From contig JADHWK010000036.1 of the NCBI GenBank assembly GCA_016783505.1, positions 1 through 23,676 on the forward strand: a stretch of DNA of 23,676 nucleotides. Direction: 5' to 3'. Position numbers and translations under genes: made by a program. This stretch comes from Candidatus Zhuqueibacterota bacterium (GTDB taxonomy: Bacteria > BS750m-G25). The notes under the pieces are model-generated. The model was not told the origin of the DNA and did no database searches. It saw only the letters and a list, made by a program, of their open reading frames with translations. The first letter of the stretch is position 1. Each line of letters starts with the position of its first letter. Of the stretch, positions 3,208 through 15,601 are shown in pieces.

Positions 3208-3633
3208 TCAGGAATTGGCTTTTGTGTCACCTTGTGCTTCGATCAAATTATTTATAACAGTGCCAATTGCATCAATATATCCGGGTACAATAGAACTATA
3301 AATTTCATTAGCAACTTCATCGTTGTAAATATGTACAATATCATTCCTCTTTCGAACCATTTGTACAAAGGTGAGTTCAAGATTTTCAGGAATTAACCCA
3401 ACCTGAAATGCAAGTTTAAAACAATCCATCGGAGAAAAGCATTCCAACCCTTTTTCCTCAAGCAAGAATAATTTTATCGTTTTCCACATAACTTCATAAG
3501 TGTATTCAAACCGTTTGGCAGATAACTCGACATTATTGATATGGTCGAAATGAAATTCTTTACATTCCTTTAACCTACTATATGCCTTTAGAAGATCGCT
3601 GACTTTTTTCTTTAATATTTCACTGTATGCCAT
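3208..3633 (-). CDS. HEPN protein, HI0074-like nucleotidyltransferase partner
   Basis: A 141-residue all-helical protein that fits the HI0074-like 'nucleotidyltransferase substrate binding' HEPN family in length and pattern: an N-terminal helix with L-x-x-L-x-x-A-Y-x-R-L-x-E, then F-E-Y-T-Y-E-V-M-W-K-T-I-K at about 41-53, and the HEPN motif R-N-D-I-V-H at about 91-96. The R-x4-H motif is the RNase active site in HEPN toxins. The gene starts 22 nt inside the end of the upstream nucleotidyltransferase gene, so the two are translated as a pair. In studied type VII systems the HEPN protein is the toxin and is AMPylated at a C-terminal or active-site Tyr; here the Tyr right after the motif (V-H-I-Y) is a candidate, by analogy only. 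Confidence 0.85.
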   Translation of the reverse strand: MAYSEILKKKVSDLLKAYSRLKECKEFHFDHINNVELSAKRFEYTYEVMWKTIKLFLLEEKGLECFSPMDCFKLAFQVGLIPENLELTFVQMVRKRNDIVHIYNDEVANEIYSSIVPGYIDAIGTVINNLIEAQGDTKANS

Positions 3634-3935
3634 AATTCAACCTTTTTCATAGCTATTTTTTTGAATTTATCATCAATGCGTGAAAAATCTACTAAATCAA
3701 TCTTTCTTAATGTATCCACTTCATAGTTTAGCCGTTCAACGAGTGATAGAAAGTTTTTGTCTTCAATTCCTGTATCATTAATAAGGCCAATATCAATATC
3801 CGAAAGACGTGATTTCTTTTCGCTAACCTGTGACCCAAATAGCAAAACGGTTGTTTCTTCTGGTGAAAGAACGCTGAATATTATATCCAGTATTTGTTTC
3901 TGAAGCATTGTTTTTATATAACGTGAAGGATTCAT
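3612..3935 (-). CDS. MNT-type nucleotidyltransferase, HI0073-like (antitoxin partner)
   Basis: A minimal nucleotidyltransferase with L-L-F-G-S-Q and S-D-I-D-I-G-L motifs in the first half, matching the metal-binding signature of the polymerase-beta superfold. The ATG at 3935 (MNPSRYIKT) is preferred over ATG 3953 because AGGGGG sits 7 nt upstream of it and nothing lies upstream of 3953; from 3935 the protein is 107 residues. It overlaps the HEPN gene by 22 nt. This is the intact nucleotidyltransferase-HEPN pair of the window, in contrast to the broken one at 403-877. The likely role is modification and silencing of the HEPN RNase, known for the family and not shown here. Confidence 0.85.
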   Translation of the reverse strand: MNPSRYIKTMLQKQILDIIFSVLSPEETTVLLFGSQVSEKKSRLSDIDIGLINDTGIEDKNFLSLVERLNYEVDTLRKIDLVDFSRIDDKFKKIAMKKVELWHTVKY

Positions 3936-3952
3936 CCCAAAACCCCCTATCA

Positions 3953-4300
3953 TTAAAAAACAAAATGCAAATGCGCATAAAGGATGTTCGAATTCCTATT
4001 CGAAATTCCTTCGTCATATTGAACCCCTTGGTAGTCCAAAACCAATTCTACATCTTTACTTATCCAATATCCTATCCCTATAATTTCCCTCAGGTGGGAA
4101 TCATTTTCTGTCTTTGTATCAGGATCAAACCAGTCCATTCTGCCAATGATAGTCCACTTAGAAGTAAGTTTGAAAACACTGAAGAAAGAATAGCCTAAAA
4201 ATTTGGTCTCTTGGCTGCCTATTTTATCATTCCCAGCCGAGAGCTCCGCACCAAGAGTTAATCGGTTGGATTCAAAGGTGGCAAAGCCCGTCCTCTCCGG
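3953..4300 (-). pseudogene. C-terminal remnant of a porin-like outer-membrane beta-barrel protein
   Basis: One frame reads for about 115 codons without a plausible start: T-G-F-A-T-F-E-S-N-R-L, then R-M-D-W-F-D-P-D-T, N-D-S-H-L-R-E, I-G-I-G-Y-W-I, V-E-L-V-L-D-Y-Q-G, and it ends L-H-F-V-F-stop. Alternating strands, a R-x-D-W/Y-x-D-P turn, a L-D-Y-Q strand and a terminal Phe are what I know from C-terminal halves of phosphate-selective or similar porins. An ATG inside (4138) opens only the last 61 codons. The upstream end meets the cytidylyltransferase remnant at about 4272-4300. I infer a deletion or recombination junction that left only the barrel's tail. Confidence 0.6.
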
Positions 4301-7735: not shown

Positions 7736-10117
7736 CTATTTCCTGTTTTGTTCTTTCCTGTTCTTCATAAACCAGTCAATTGTGGCTCGCAATCCTTTCT
7801 CCAGGTCTGTCTTCGGTTCCCAATTCAGGATCTCTTTTGCCCGGCTAATGTCGGGTTGCCGAATTTTAGGATCGTCCTGGGGCAGGGGTCTGAAGATTAT
7901 TTTTTTCTCGTTTCCAACCCATACAGGTCTACGGACAATTTCGGTGATCTTTTCCGCCAGTTCCAGAATGTTCATTTCCTGGGGGTTTCCCAGATTAACA
8001 GGGTCATTCTCTTCAGACGTCAATAGCCGATAGATCCCGTCAACCAGATCATCCACATAGCAGAAGCTGCGGGTCTGGGAGCCATCCCCGAAGACGGTAA
8101 TGGGTTTATTGTCCAGGACTTGATTTATAAATGTGGGCACGGCACGGCCGTCATAGGCCCGCATTCGGGGTCCGTAGGTGTTTTTGGCACATACCCCATT
8201 ACCCGCCACAAAATTCTCTACCTCTGGGACAGAAAAATCATAGACTAACTTTGTACTCTTGCATTTATTTATAGATCTAATTTGAACCCAAACTAGATCA
8301 CCCATTGAGGTTGCATTTAGCGTTTGGTGGACACCTTTATCCCACTGAAGAATATCAAAATTCGAGAGTTGACAGATGGTTATCCGGTAGAAAGGAAAAC
8401 GCCGTTCACCATATCTCTGTCGGAAGGTAGTCTTATAACAACCAACTGATGCTATAATACCGAAACGTAAGAGAAGTAAAGTTAGATCGGTAGCCAATTT
8501 ATCGCTGACAGTATTAAAACATAATTCGTTTCCCATCTTAGCCCCGCTGTGGGTGCCATCTCCTTGGCGGTAGCCCTCTAAAAAATACTTAAGACGAGAG
8601 AGGGGTAATTGAAAAACCCAAGGTGGAATCTGCTTGGTTTTAGAGCTGTGGGCCAGCCCAAAAAGCCTTTTGAAAACTAAGCAAAGGAGTTTCGAGTGAG
8701 CATATATTGATGGGCTGCGGTTAAGCGAAGGTTTAATAAAGCCCACTTTAACTCCAAAAATAGCTTGCAAGATCCGCTGAGCACGCTTAAGATAATCTGT
8801 ATCAGAGCTTAATGTTAAGAAATGGGTACCATGTTCATCGGAAGAGTAAACTGTCCCCTCGGCGACAAATAAGCCCAACAGCCACAAGACATCCGGGGTG
8901 ATTTTAATTTCGTTGTGAATCCAAACCCTTGCTCCTGCTTTATACATGCGCAATTTCCCCTTTCTGGGTAAGGGAATATTTTGCAGCTTTTTGAACACAT
9001 ATAGAGGTAAGAAGCTACCGTGCAGATATTTTCGATAGGCACAACCTGCACTGTTGTTCTTGCGGACGCCATGAAAATGATCCGACTGCCGTAAAAGTCT
9101 TTCGATCTCCGCTCTGTAATTTGAAATTAAGGGTCCTAACTCTGGCAAAGTCAGTGCATACTCCCATAACTCCTTCTCTGGGGTATTTTTTATGAGATAT
9201 TCTGTTACATTAATGTACTTTAAATCCTTTTCAACCACGGGCAACTTGCTAGGGATGGCAATATAATCCCCTACTCTTAAATGACGTACTGGCTCAGCTT
9301 CAGGCTTTCCATCTCTGGTGCGCCGGAATAGGCTGTGATCCCCTGTCACCCTGATCTTTCGGCCATACCGGGTGGTAACTTCGTAAGCATCCTTGCTATT
9401 GCCGGGATGACTGAACAATGCGCTCGCCTCATGCAAAGAGATACGCCCAGTCTGCGGATCAAAGGCAGGCACCCGAACAGTGCGGGGGCGCCATATTTTG
9501 GGGTTGGCTACTTCCTTTGCGTACTCTTCCACTGATTTAAGGTGGCACTGTTCGTCATTGAAAACAATGATCGTCTCATCGGCCAGAATGCTGTTGAAGA
9601 TACGAGCGATCCTTGTATCCACCCCATGAGTGCGATGATAGGCTAGGGTAATGGCTTCGGCATACCGTTTGGATTCATCATAGACTCCCCTGGGGCCGGT
9701 GGGATTGACGTTGCCCCAATAATCCTCAGTTTGGGGATGTACCAGGGGGTCCCCGTAAATTTCTGATGTGGAGGCTAAAAGAAAACGGGCTTTCTTTTCC
9801 TTGGCCAGGCCCAACGCTTTGTGAGTCCCCAGTGCATTTACCTTTAACGTTTGAATAGGATATTCTAAATAATCAATCGGGCTGGCCGGCGAGGCGAAAT
9901 GGAGGATGTAGTCTACCTCTCCTGGAATGTAAATATATTCGGTTACATCGTGCTTGATAAACTTGAAGTTTTCGTTTTCAATCAAATGGGCGATGTGATC
10001 AATCTTACCGGTCAGCAGATTGTCCATGCCGATCACTTTGAACCCCTTCGATAACAAATAATCGCAGAGATGGGAACCCAAAAATCCAGCAGCTCCGGTA
10101 ATGAGGGCGGTTTTCAT
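7736..10117 (-). CDS. uxs: UDP-glucuronate decarboxylase (UDP-xylose synthase) precursor with intein
   Basis: A 793-residue precursor. Residues 1-175 and 647-793 join into a 322-residue short-chain dehydrogenase of the UDP-glucuronate decarboxylase family, about the length of bacterial soluble members. G-A-A-G-F-L-G at 8-14 binds [11 protein letters not shown] at 117-124 holds the catalytic Thr/Ser and Glu; Tyr146 and Lys150 form Y-x-x-x-K. The C-terminal part has T-Y-G-P-R-M and R-S-F-C-Y-V-D-D-L. It converts UDP-glucuronate to UDP-xylose and CO2. Residues 176-646 are an intein inserted in R-I-F-N^T-Y-G-P-R-M, after the catalytic Tyr/Lys. Without splicing the enzyme core is split. The start at 10117 follows AAGGAAG at 5-6 nt spacing. 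ugd downstream supplies its substrate. Confidence 0.93.
8180..9592 (-). mobile_element. LAGLIDADG intein in the UDP-xylose synthase
   Basis: A 471-residue insertion in the host frame. It starts [11 protein letters not shown] (block A, Ser as nucleophile). V-T-G-D-H-S-L-F at intein residues 82-89 is block B with the T-x-x-H motif. Two LAGLIDADG dodecapeptides are seen: L-L-G-L-F-V-A-E-G (238-246) and [10 protein letters not shown] (337-346), with acidic residues Glu245 and Asp345 as expected for homing endonucleases. It ends V-Y-D-F-S-V...[11 protein letters not shown] (blocks F and G), followed by Thr as the +1 nucleophile. Lys replaces the usual penultimate His. The insertion point is the conserved R-I-F-N-T-Y-G-P motif of the host. 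Splicing and nuclease activity are inferred from motifs. Confidence 0.92.
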
Positions 10118-10363: not shown

Positions 10364-11470
10364 TTAAATCTTTGGATTTATGCTCATTATAACTTTGGCG
10401 ATTCTCTCCGCCGCTCTGCCTTCCCAAAACTCCGGGACCTTCCCCTTTTTTCCCCGGCCCGAAAGGATTTTTCGGGCTTCTCTCACAATATCTTCTCTAT
10501 TTACCCCTACCAACGTGTTCGTTCCCACCCTGATGGTAACCGGTCTTTCGGTATTCTTGCGAAGGGTCAGACAGGGAATTCCCATTACCGTGGTTTCCTC
10601 TTGCATTCCCCCAGAGTCGGTCATAACGAACCTGGAGTTGGCCTCTAACTTGATAAAATCCAGATAACCAAGGGGGTCGGTAATCTTTAGGTTTTTGGTC
10701 CGAGCCTGACTGATCCGGAATTTCCGGATCATCTTCTGGGTGCGGGGGTGGGCGGGGAAGATGATGGGAATTTCAGTTTGAATTTCCGCAAATGCATCCA
10801 GGAAATCCCCCAACTGCCCCTCCACATCCACATTGGCCGGCCGGTGCAGGGTGACCAGGGCGTATCCCTTGGGCTGTACCCCCAATTTTTCTAATATAGT
10901 GGATCTATCGGTCAGGGGCAGGTACTCCAGCAGTGAGTCAATCATGACGTTGCCTACCCGGTGGATTTGGTCGGGGGAATGGCCTTCCTTTAGTAAATTC
11001 TGGTCGGCGTCTTCACAGGTGGTAAAGAGCAGGTCGGATACGGTGTCAGTCACCAGCCGATTGATCTCTTCGGGCATCTCCCAATCGAAGCTTCGTAAAC
11101 CCGCCTCAATATGGGCGACCTTGATGTGGAGTTTAACCGCCGCTAGCGAGCAGGCTAGGGTCGAATTCACGTCCCCTACCACCAGCACCAAATCCGGTTT
11201 GTTTTCCCCATCTTTTAACAATGCCTCCTCATAAGCCATCATCACCTTGGCGGTCTGGACCCCATGAGTTCCGGATCCTACCCCCAGGTAAATATCTGGG
11301 TGGGGCAAATTCAGCTCTTGGAAGAATATCCGGGACATTTTATCATCGTAATGCTGTCCGGTATGAATGAGCCGGACCGAAAACCGCCCGGGCACCTTCT
11401 TCAATTCCCCGTAGACAGGGGCGGCCTTCATAAAGTTAGGTCGAGCACCGACAATTAGATCAATTCGCAT
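10364..11470 (-). CDS. wecB: UDP-N-acetylglucosamine 2-epimerase (non-hydrolysing), copy 1
   Basis: A 368-residue enzyme that interconverts UDP-GlcNAc and UDP-ManNAc or acts on a related amino-sugar nucleotide. Family motifs: G-A-R-P-N-F-M-K-A-A-P (8-18), T-G-Q-H-Y-D (37-42), G-D-V-N-S-T (99-104), H-I-E-A-G-L-R (120-126), P-E-E-I-N-R (133-138) and T-L-H-R-P near 210. An upstream ATG at 11572 would add 34 residues encoded by repeat sequence, so the start is placed at 11470, which begins like other members. The ribosome binding site there is weak. The gene lies between the direct repeats at 10229 and 11508. It may act as a WbpI-type epimerase on a di-N-acetylated uronic sugar instead, given the fusion enzyme at 13105. 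Confidence 0.9.
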   Translation of the reverse strand: MRIDLIVGARPNFMKAAPVYGELKKVPGRFSVRLIHTGQHYDDKMSRIFFQELNLPHPDIYLGVGSGTHGVQTAKVMMAYEEALLKDGENKPDLVLVVGDVNSTLACSLAAVKLHIKVAHIEAGLRSFDWEMPEEINRLVTDTVSDLLFTTCEDADQNLLKEGHSPDQIHRVGNVMIDSLLEYLPLTDRSTILEKLGVQPKGYALVTLHRPANVDVEGQLGDFLDAFAEIQTEIPIIFPAHPRTQKMIRKFRISQARTKNLKITDPLGYLDFIKLEANSRFVMTDSGGMQEETTVMGIPCLTLRKNTERPVTIRVGTNTLVGVNREDIVREARKILSGRGKKGKVPEFWEGRAAERIAKVIMSINPKI

Positions 11471-11507
11471 GCTTCTATCATCCCAAATTCGGAAAACAAC
11501 GAATAAT

Positions 11508-11572
11508 ACTGAAATGATCGCTGATTGATGCTGGAGCCCAGGTTTTAACAATTGGCAATTAACAATCAACAA
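11508..11572. repeat. Composite repeat, copy B (uninterrupted)
   Basis: Sixty-five nt matching copy A at 10229-10327 apart from the palindrome insertion there. It overlaps the spurious 5' extension of the copy 1 epimerase frame. Confidence 0.75.
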
Positions 11573-11657: not shown

Positions 11658-12863
11658 ATGAAGATTGACCTGGTTGTCGGGGCCCGGCCAAATTTTATGA
11701 AAGCGGCGCCGGTGGTTGAAGAACTGAGGGGGGATCCGGAATACTTTAGGGTCCGCCTGATACACACCGGACAGCACTACGACGTCCGGATGTCCCAGGT
11801 GTTCTTTCAGGACCTAAGCATGCCGGAGCCGGACATCTACCTGGGGGTGGGCTCGGGCACCCACGGGGTGCAGACGGCTAAGGTGATGATCGAATATGAG
11901 AAGGTTCTCCTTGGGGACAAACCCGACTTAGTGTTGGTCGTCGGGGATGTGAACTCCACCCTGGCCTGTTCCTTAGTCGCCGTGAAGCTCGGGGTCCGGG
12001 TGGGTCACATCGAGGCCGGGGTACGGAGCTTTGACTGGGAAATGCCGGAGGAAATTAACAGACTGGTGACGGATACCTTGTCGGAGTTTCTGTTTACCCC
12101 CACCGTGGATGCGGATCAGAACCTGCTGAAGGAAGGGCATTCCCCGGATCAGATCCACCGGGTAGGAAACGTGATGATCGATTCCCTCCTGAAACACCGG
12201 GAGAAGGCGGAGAAGTCCCCCATTCTGACCAAGATGGGTCTTGAACCTCAGGGGTATGTCCTGGTAACGCTGCACCGGCCCGCCAATGTGGACGCCCAGG
12301 AGCAGTTGAAAAAATTTATGGCAGCCTTTGCTGAGATTCAAGAGCGGATACCCATCGTCTTCCCCGTCCATCCCCGGACGCAGAAGATGATCCGGACTGC
12401 TCTGGGTGATCCTTCGGATCGGTCTGGCCCTGATAACCTTCAGAAAGGATCGCCCCTAACGGAGGGGACCATCAACCGCCTGAGAAATCTGAAGATGACG
12501 GATCCGGTAGGGTACCTTGATTTCATAAAACTGCAGGCCAACGCCCGGCTGGTGCTTACCGACTCCGGGGGGATTCAGGCGGAGACCACTGTGTTGAACG
12601 TCCCCTGTCTGACCTTAAGGAAAAACACGGAATGGCCTATCACCTTAGAGAGGGGTACGAATACCTTGGTGGGAGCGGAACCGGAAGGAATTGTTGGGGG
12701 GGTTCAGAAAATCCTGTCCCAGGAATTCCCCCCTGGCCGGGAAAAAGCGGGGGTGCCCGAACTCTGGGACGGAAAGACGGCCAAACGAATCGTAGGGATA
12801 CTTAAGAACTTAGCACTTCAGGGACAATTGTTTACCAACAGTATTCATCGGGGGAATTTTTGA
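11658..12863 (+). CDS. UDP-N-acetylglucosamine 2-epimerase family protein, copy 2
   Basis: A 401-residue paralogue of the gene at 10364, transcribed the other way from a shared 187-nt intergenic region. It shares long identical runs with it, for example G-V-G-S-G-T-H-G-V-Q-T-A-K-V-M, E-I-N-R-L-V-T-D-T and K-E-G-H-S-P-D-Q-I-H-R-V-G-N-V-M-I-D-S-L-L. Active-site motifs G-D-V-N-S-T, H-I-E-A-G and T-L-H-R-P are kept. It carries about 20 extra residues between K-M-I-R and N-L-K-M-T-D-P, encoded by a stretch rich in short inverted repeats (about 12402-12465), and a C-terminal tail (L-A-L-Q-G-Q-L-F-T-N-S-I) that I do not recognise. One copy may serve UDP-GlcNAc and the other a diacetamido-uronate. 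Confidence 0.9.
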   Translation: MKIDLVVGARPNFMKAAPVVEELRGDPEYFRVRLIHTGQHYDVRMSQVFFQDLSMPEPDIYLGVGSGTHGVQTAKVMIEYEKVLLGDKPDLVLVVGDVNSTLACSLVAVKLGVRVGHIEAGVRSFDWEMPEEINRLVTDTLSEFLFTPTVDADQNLLKEGHSPDQIHRVGNVMIDSLLKHREKAEKSPILTKMGLEPQGYVLVTLHRPANVDAQEQLKKFMAAFAEIQERIPIVFPVHPRTQKMIRTALGDPSDRSGPDNLQKGSPLTEGTINRLRNLKMTDPVGYLDFIKLQANARLVLTDSGGIQAETTVLNVPCLTLRKNTEWPITLERGTNTLVGAEPEGIVGGVQKILSQEFPPGREKAGVPELWDGKTAKRIVGILKNLALQGQLFTNSIHRGNF

Positions 12864-13044: not shown

Positions 13045-13104
13045 TAATTATGTTGAAATTAATTTTTAGAAATTTTGGGAAGTAAATTTAACTCAGGGGT
13101 TAAT

Positions 13105-14685
13105 ATGAAAGACATTGCAGTGGTTGGTGCCGGATATTGGGGTCAAAATCTGATTCGAAATTTTTACGAACTGGGGGTTTTAAAGACCGTATTTGATCAG
13201 AAAAAGGAGGCCTCCCTGAGTCAAAAAGAAAGGTTCCCGGGATTGAACCTAGCGGACAGTTGGGGACAGCTCTTATCCGATCCTGATATTATCGGGGTGG
13301 TGATTGCCACCCCGGCTGAGACCCATTATGAATTGGCCTCCGATTCCCTAAAGGCTGGCAAACACGTCTTTGTGGAAAAACCCTTAGCCTTATTCTCCCA
13401 TCAGGCAGGGGAGCTAATTCAAAAATCAAAAGAGGCCCAGAAGGTCTTGATGGTGGGTCATCTGTTGCTCTATCATCCGGCCGTTTTGAAGTTGAAGGAA
13501 TTAATCGCGGAAGGAAGGCTGGGGAAATTGGAATATATTTATTCTAATAGATTGAACCTGGGAAAGGTCCGTAAGGAGGAAAACATCCTGTGGAGCTTCG
13601 CCCCCCACGACATCTCTGTAATTCTGTTTTTATTGGAATCCGACCCCATTCTGGTTGAGGCCCTGGGGGGAACTTATCTGCAGCCCGGAATACAGGACGT
13701 TACCATGACGACGATGAAATTTCCCAACGGGGTAATGGCTCATATATATGTGAGTTGGCTGCACCCCTTCAAAGAACAGCGGTTGATGGTCATCGGGGAT
13801 AGAAGCATGGCGGTGTTTGAGGATTCCCTTCCCTCTGAGAAGCTGAGATTGTACGATCGCGGAATTGACTGGATCGGGGGGGAACCGGTGAAGCGTCTTA
13901 AGGAACCTGAAGTGATCCCTATCTCCCGCGAAGAGCCCCTCAAATTGGAATGCCAACATTTCCTGGATTGTATAAATAAAAATCAAAAACCCCGCACCGA
14001 CGGTGAAAACGGCCTTAAGGTACTTTCCATTCTAGAACAGGCTCAGCGGTCCATGGCCCAGAAAGAACGGATGGTTTTTCAGGCCCCATTCGTAGAACCC
14101 ACACAGGGAAAATACTTTGTTCATCCAACGGCGGTGGTGGATGAAAGCTGTGCCATCGGGGAGGGAACCAAGATCTGGCATTTTTCGCACATTCAGGGTG
14201 GCAGCCGCATCGGGTGGAACTGTTCCTTGGGTCAGAATGTGAACGTGGGCAACAACGTTACTATTGGAAATTACGTAAAAATTCAGAACAATGTGTCCGT
14301 GTATGAGGGGGTGGAGCTGGAAGATTACGTTTTTTGTGGTCCTTCGATGGTGTTTACCAATATCAAAAACCCCCGGAGCGAATTTCCCCAGAAGGGGTCC
14401 TACATTCGAACTTTGGTCAAACGGGGGACTTCCCTGGGGGCGAACGCTACCATCCTCTGCGGGATTACCATCGGCAAATATGCGTTTATCGGGGCCGGAG
14501 CCGTGGTCACCAAGGATGTGCCCGATTATGCCCTCCTTACCGGCAATCCGGCAAAAATAAGGGGGTGGATGTGTCGGTGTGGGACAAAATTACAATTACA
14601 ACGGAAAGAAGCTAACTGCTCAAGATGTGGTCGGCAGTTTCGGCTTAAGGATGGAAAAATAGCCCCGGTTTCTGGGGAAGAGTAA
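13105..14685 (+). CDS. Fused Gfo/Idh/MocA sugar dehydrogenase and beta-helix N-acyltransferase (WlbA-WlbB/WbpB-WbpD type)
   Basis: A 526-residue two-enzyme protein. Residues 1-325 are a Gfo/Idh/MocA oxidoreductase: G-A-G-Y-W-G at 8-13 for NAD, E-K-P at 91-93. Residues about 337-485 are a left-handed parallel beta-helix acyltransferase, with hexapeptide repeats such as I-G-E-G-T-K-I-W and [10 protein letters not shown], and G-N-P-A-K at 480-484. Cys490, 492, 505 and 508 form a likely zinc-binding tail. In the WbpB/WbpD and WlbA/WlbB pathways the dehydrogenase oxidises C3 of UDP-GlcNAcA, an aminotransferase adds an amino group, and the acetyltransferase acetylates it. Here steps 1 and 3 are one chain; the aminotransferase is not in the window. 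ATG 13105 follows AGGGG; an upstream frame start at 13075 was rejected. Confidence 0.88.
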
Positions 14686-14742: not shown

Positions 14743-14769
14743 ATGGGGTTATTCAGGGATCGGCTTTAA
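14743..14769 (+). pseudogene. Ribosome binding site plus 8-codon frame: start of a lost gene
   Basis: AGGAGGGG (14727-14734) stands 8 nt before ATG 14743, an ideal start signal right after the fusion gene. The frame reads MGLFRDRL then TAA, and overlaps the 3' end of the converging gene at 14749. I infer the beginning of a former downstream operon gene that was cut off; a real micropeptide is the alternative. Confidence 0.35.
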
Positions 14770-15282
14770 TAGTTTCTCATGATTAAAATTTATTAGGGTT
14801 TTGGCGAGGCAGTATTCGCCGAATTTGGTTACGATCTTTCCTTGACGATTATTGCTTAAGGATAAGAAATGATGGATAGCCGCGGCCGTGATATGGGCTC
14901 TTTTCAGGTTATTTTCCCCGCTAAAGTTTTCTAATCCATCAGCTAAATACTTGGGAACATAGAATTGAACAGGGATCCTTTTTTCTAATTTATTCCTTAT
15001 TGGGTAATAAATTTTTTTTGTTCTTAATGCCTTGGTTAAACTGATGTCACCGTATTTTACCAAGATTTTTTTCTGTCGGTTTTGATTAAGGGTCAAAAAG
15101 TGATGAAGTGTCGCGCCGACAAATTGATATGGTCTTCCCCCGTTATTCTTACAATATGATTCAAGATTAACTCTGAGGGATTTGGGGATGGTAATGCCTA
15201 TATGTCTATCCCTTTTCAATTTCACCTGAGAATACTTTTTTTCATTCTTCTTTGTGCCGAAAGGTCGGTATGTCTGTGTCAT
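14749..15282 (-). CDS. Hypothetical protein with two tandem ribbon-helix-helix-like units
   Basis: A 177-residue basic protein (from ATG 15282; a TTG at 15288 would add two residues). It is made of two copies of one unit with a 77-residue period: I-P-K-S-L at 32-36 and V-P-K-Y-L at 109-113; H-H-F-L at 60-63 and 137-140; N-R-Q at 68-70 and 145-147; K-Y-G-D at 76-79 and K-F-G-E at 153-156; L-T-K-A-L at 82-86 and L-A-K-T-L at 159-163. Each unit has a short strand (I-T-I-P or F-Y-V-P) followed by two helices, the layout of MetJ/Arc ribbon-helix-helix DNA-binding domains, which work as dimers; a single chain could form the dimer by itself. I do not recognise the family. The gene stands alone and has a weak ribosome binding site. 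The DNA-binding role is inferred. Confidence 0.65.
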   Translation of the reverse strand: MTQTYRPFGTKKNEKKYSQVKLKRDRHIGITIPKSLRVNLESYCKNNGGRPYQFVGATLHHFLTLNQNRQKKILVKYGDISLTKALRTKKIYYPIRNKLEKRIPVQFYVPKYLADGLENFSGENNLKRAHITAAAIHHFLSLSNNRQGKIVTKFGEYCLAKTLINFNHEKLLKPIPE

Positions 15283-15601
15283 TTTCAATTTCCATTATGG
15301 ACTAACAATAATATAAAAATTTTTTGGGAAAAATCAAGTAAAAAAACGATCCCAAGGAATAAAAGTCAATATTTATGTAACAATATCGGTCAGGAGCCTG
15401 ACTGATGTCCGACTTAAAGATCGATTCTGCCAGAGCGAGACAAAAAGTGTTGTCAGATTAAAAGCTCAAAAGACTTGACTTTTCCTTCTAAATGTTGTAA
15501 ATTTACGATTAGAAAATGCAGAGATTTTATTTTCCAAATTTTCTCCATTTTTGGGTTATTCAGGCAGATATTTTTCACCAAATTATACCGTTTTTATAAC
15601 T
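15283..15601. other. Intergenic region upstream of the tRNA gene
   Basis: No gene seen. It holds the start region of the converging gene, a perfect palindrome at 15389-15402 (GTCAGGAGCCTGAC) and a promoter-like pair at 15475-15503. Confidence 0.6.
15475..15503 (+). promoter_or_regulatory. Sigma70-like promoter for the tRNA gene
   Basis: TTGACT (15475-15480), a 17-nt spacer and TAAATT (15498-15503). The tRNA starts about 100 nt downstream, so a 5' leader would have to be removed by RNase P. Prediction from consensus. Confidence 0.45.

Follow-up and report, generated by a model that had tools for sequence, protein, structure and literature searches.

The window, i.e., the whole 23,676-nucleotide stretch of a Candidatus Zhuqueibacterota contig analyzed here, contains a gene for UDP-glucuronate decarboxylase (UDP-xylose synthase, UXS) whose frame is occupied in the middle by an insert that is, with very high probability, a class 1 intein carrying an intact LAGLIDADG homing endonuclease, predicted to splice and to cut, and mobile at the host motif RIFN^TYGP (the caret marks the insertion point). 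The identity of the insert lies far beyond chance because it rests on profile matches together with 23 further complete inteins found at the identical position. The insertion site itself is apparently undescribed, while the element is otherwise a normal intein. The relevant features are the following.

7736–10117, minus strand: precursor gene, UDP-glucuronate decarboxylase plus intein, 793 aa (open reading frame, Pfam, homology)
9593–10117, minus strand: N-extein, residues 1–175, with the Rossmann NAD domain and the catalytic Tyr146/Lys150
8180–9592, minus strand: intein, 471 aa (Ser1–Asn471), precursor residues 176–646, a Hint splicing domain with an inserted LAGLIDADG endonuclease (profiles, fold, alignment)
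9590–9592, minus strand: block A nucleophile Ser1 (invariant in 24 alleles)
9335–9346, minus strand: block B TGDH with T83 and H86 (T and H invariant in 24 alleles)
8855–8881, minus strand: first LAGLIDADG motif, LLGLFVAEG, with Glu245 (invariant acid)
8555–8584, minus strand: second LAGLIDADG motif, with Asp345 (invariant acid)
8180–8245, minus strand: C-terminal splicing region including block F and the last residues Lys470-Asn471 (NCBIfam model, alignment)
7736–8179, minus strand: C-extein starting with the +1 Thr (TYGPRM...), 147 residues and the stop codon
6219–7517, minus strand: UDP-glucose 6-dehydrogenase without an intein, next downstream of UXS on the same strand, which supplies the UDP-glucuronate substrate

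The reading frame at 7736–10117 runs through 793 codons with zero internal stops. Residues 1–175 and 647–793 make up the UXS extein, for which a search of solved structures returned human UXS1 as the top match, with 353 bits versus 137 bits for the next family; among the extended SDRs the extein is nearest to UXS, and it has the YxxxK motif (Y146/K150). An earlier note on this DNA, made from the letters alone, had named UDP-xylose synthase as the host, and this assignment holds. Its description of a cell-surface sugar enzyme needs correcting: the enzyme makes a nucleotide sugar, and the protein does not sit on the cell surface.

Regarding the insert, Hint signals are present at both of its ends with the LAGLIDADG motifs in between: Pfam reports Intein_splicing (PF14890) at 68 bits and LAGLIDADG_3 (PF14528) at 48 bits, and the NCBIfam models for the N- and C-terminal intein splicing regions, TIGR01445 and TIGR01443, both score above their cut-offs. 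The predicted structure of the intein has a pLDDT of 89.1, and its best structural match is PI-PkoII (2cw7; Z 36.8, 412 aligned residues, rmsd 3.9), followed in order by the TliVMA and PhoVMA inteins and PI-PfuI, while residues 229–417 of the predicted fold match I-DmoI with a Z of about 15. The element has what defines a class 1 intein, namely a nucleophile at position 1, the block B TxxH, the block F Asp, a C-terminal Asn, and a Cys, Ser or Thr at +1, and it likewise has the two dodecapeptide motifs with acidic residues (E245, D345) of a LAGLIDADG endonuclease. Moreover, none of the 24 complete alleles departs from S1, T83, H86, E245, D345, D452 (the block F Asp), N471, and T+1. The insertion is in frame, the host frame is open, and homologues without the insert exist. 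A penultimate His is usual in class 1 inteins, although not essential and no bar to membership, and the source allele has Lys470 instead, which the earlier note had passed over; this allele also lacks the block F His. Together, these two departures could make Asn cyclization slower or impaired.

The coordinates given in the earlier note, 8180–9592 for a 471-residue intein, are exact to the base (471 codons, read from 9592 to 8180), with the minus strand to be added, and the junction falls between N175 and T176 of the host motif, after Tyr146/Lys150, at the point it had given within R-I-F-N^T-Y-G-P-R-M. The residues it had singled out (Ser1, T-x-x-H, Glu245, Asp345, the C-terminal Asn, and the +1 Thr) are present and belong to the invariant set, and two of the checks it had proposed, a search with Hint-N, Hint-C and LAGLIDADG profiles and an alignment with intein-free UXS, both turned out as it expected. 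Its emphasis on the active-site motif is right as to location but less so as to distinctiveness: insertion near active sites is typical of inteins, with a mean distance of 8.3 Å (PMC3359363), and it is usual to find them in conserved motifs close to active sites (PMC2814812, PMC3359363).

Including the source allele, 24 complete inteins lie exactly between the N and the T of RIFN^T(Y/F)G, in hosts from the Deinococcota, Actinomycetota, Chloroflexota, Planctomycetota, and Acidobacteriota as well as the source phylum, and most of them are just 34–55% identical to the source intein. They were assembled in steps of different reach. Among 59 genomes of different families there was one full-length same-site relative, 47% identical, in Thermus composti (same contig as L021), and a search across the Deinococcota added three complete copies and one remnant. 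The remaining alleles come from a search of a collection of genome contigs with an alignment of five alleles, which recovered the family where a single-sequence scan of genome contigs gave zero matches. The match L041 and those after it were dropped from the allele set, as they are archaeal inteins within other genes. Two further same-site inteins (L039, L040) are cut by contig ends and stand outside the 24; that of L040 (2647–3129) comes from a contig of 3.1 kb assigned to the archaeon Ca. Methanoperedens and may be either a cross-domain case or a result of misbinning. Searches of phage, plasmid, and viral-contig collections found zero copies of the UXS intein.

Empty sites are common. In 45 UXS genes that lack an intein (16 in Thermaceae, 29 in other families), the RIFN^T(Y/F)G motif is uninterrupted; one of these genes has RFFN. 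The 21 Thermaceae genomes with a UXS match divide into 4 occupied, 16 empty, and 1 remnant, the last in genome G109 (L014, 8348–8923, minus strand), where the N-terminal half of the intein is lost and what is left is the end of the intein followed by the C-extein, with degenerate residues at the junction (FCQN^TYGLCM). As for the conservation of the target, among 312 ten-residue stretches the one at the junction is 12th and the one a residue later is 3rd.

The Thermaceae also provide the case of transfer. Between Thermus composti and G082, which belongs to another genus of the family, the inteins are 97% identical in nucleotides with 229 of 246 fourfold sites equal, whereas the two exteins are only 80 and 72% identical, with 49 of 85 and 27 of 57 fourfold sites equal, respectively. 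Identity falls to the extein level at the edges of the intein, except that a brief stretch upstream is identical as well, which resembles co-conversion. In addition, the intein tree pairs Thermus composti with G082 (support 100/96), while the extein tree groups G082 with its own genus (support 98). Because a 97% identical intein lies between 72–80% identical exteins and the two trees conflict, we conclude, from sequence comparison, that the UXS intein has moved horizontally, and recently, in the Thermaceae. When intein presence is mapped on the extein tree, 12 changes are needed, although well-supported branches force just 3 of them. Among more distant Thermaceae pairs the endonuclease domain has a dN/dS of 0.09–0.14, on which grounds it appears to be kept by selection. 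GC3 is lower in the intein than in the exteins, both in the source allele and in 8 of 8 other alleles checked.

An ancient intein inherited vertically, with many losses and little transfer, would account for the single group formed by the 15 actinobacterial inteins on the intein tree and for the low identity of most alleles to the source intein. Such a history is improbable for the family as a whole, being contradicted for the Thermaceae by the near-identical inteins and conflicting trees just described, but may hold for the source lineage. Horizontal transfer has apparently spread the UXS intein across unrelated bacteria, with the transfer case itself coming from the Thermaceae, as the comparison covered a single assembly of the source phylum.

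Other alternatives concern what the intein does to its host, and they turn on the penultimate residue, which is His in most of the 24 alleles, Lys in the source allele, L022, L027, and L031, and Arg in L034. These Lys and Arg residues require at least three changes on the intein tree, in genes that are otherwise intact. The repeated replacement of His by Lys or Arg might adjust splicing so that the enzyme appears under some conditions only, a rate-tuned switch on UDP-xylose supply that we regard as quite unlikely. More generally, condition-dependent splicing could set UDP-xylose output, as the site is in a conserved motif near catalytic residues and residues able to tune the splicing rate vary across the family; we hold this to be similarly unlikely, given that the sporadic presence of the intein, the mostly empty Thermaceae alleles, and the maintained endonuclease fit a selfish element, and that the sequence data give zero sign of conditionality. 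Least likely of all is a decaying intein that splices poorly in the source lineage and leaves the gene effectively dead or weakly expressed: the penultimate Lys is non-canonical, and the broken same-family remnant in G109 shows that intein decay does occur, but the source frame is open with every catalytic residue retained, Lys or Arg arose repeatedly in intact genes, Lys at this position is also known from phage inteins (PMC5050341), and this UXS, the only one found in an assembly that is 60% complete, adjoins an intact dehydrogenase.

The reading of a functional, mobile class 1 intein leads to a simple scheme for its action. Class 1 inteins proceed through an acyl shift at Ser1, transfer to Thr+1, and Asn cyclization, and the conserved residues described above fit this chemistry. 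The uxs gene would be translated as a 793-residue precursor, in which Ser1 would undergo an N-O acyl shift at the Asn175-Ser junction; the N-extein would then pass to the +1 Thr, Asn471 would cyclize, and the exteins would ligate as ...RIFN-TYGPRM... The products would be an enzyme of 322 residues and a free intein of 471. It is reasonable to expect the unspliced precursor to be inactive, and the predicted structure of the whole precursor (pTM 0.59, low confidence at 118–138, 173–179, and 637–645) is too weak a model to argue for active-site blockage. Once released, the intein would cleave the conserved RIFN|TYGP codons of uxs genes that lack it, and repair templated by an occupied copy would insert the intein into the cut gene. 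The transfer evidence most naturally points to homing by cleavage of these codons.

When placed among known inteins, the UXS element shares the Hint and LAGLIDADG architecture with PI-PkoII, which we take to be a Thermococcus DNA polymerase intein, but the latter is in another host protein and at another site, and is just 25% identical. Another parallel is the udp allele, located in the UDP-glucose 6-dehydrogenase of Halobacteria, Methanocaldococcus, and Dictyoglomus (PMC4071816): its host, too, is a nucleotide-sugar enzyme, which catalyzes the preceding step of the pathway, and it is also scattered across domains, while host enzyme family and site differ. The UXS intein was ruled out as a udp allele, since its host is UXS and the neighboring dehydrogenase carries no intein. 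Class 1 inteins with a non-His penultimate residue, Lys included, have been described from mycobacteriophage, where this residue can modulate splicing (PMC5050341). In both groups Lys or another residue occupies the position of the block G His. The mycobacteriophage inteins reside in phage proteins, most of them with roles in DNA metabolism, whereas in UXS the change to Lys or Arg occurred several times within an allele of a bacterial metabolic gene.

The rest of the window includes some observations of a different kind. On the minus strand, three toxin-antitoxin-like elements lie in 4 kb: a lone MNT-type nucleotidyltransferase (554–877), a PemK/MazF-like toxin gene (1330–1683), and overlapping genes for a HepT/nucleotidyltransferase-substrate-binding protein and a Polbeta nucleotidyltransferase (3208–3953), which resemble a HEPN-MNT toxin-antitoxin pair. 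Two UDP-GlcNAc 2-epimerase paralogues stand back to back (10364–11572, minus; 11658–12863, plus), followed by a GFO/IDH/MocA dehydrogenase fused to a hexapeptide acyltransferase (536 aa; 13075–14685, plus) and by a basic 179-aa protein without a Pfam match (14749–15288, minus), whose two halves are similar by eye.

The earlier note left open whether the insertion site had been recorded before. Publicly available genomes from no fewer than five named bacterial phyla carry inteins at this site; a published description was not found, and literature searches covering UDP-glucuronate (or glucuronic acid) decarboxylase, epimerases, and Thermus composti brought up no report of such an intein, within a partial coverage in which absence is not proof. 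The same note had stressed a host outside DNA metabolism as unusual; the host is indeed UXS, but the stress on it gives way to precedents that include UDP-glucose dehydrogenase (PMC4071816). The alleles from thermophiles, with their Ser1/Thr+1 chemistry, may be of use in protein engineering. The UXS site is widespread, being occupied in six bacterial phyla including the source phylum, and its intein has been caught moving between genera with clearly diverged exteins. Finally, two consecutive enzymes of one pathway, UDP-glucose dehydrogenase and UXS, host inteins, which weakens the tie of inteins to DNA metabolism.
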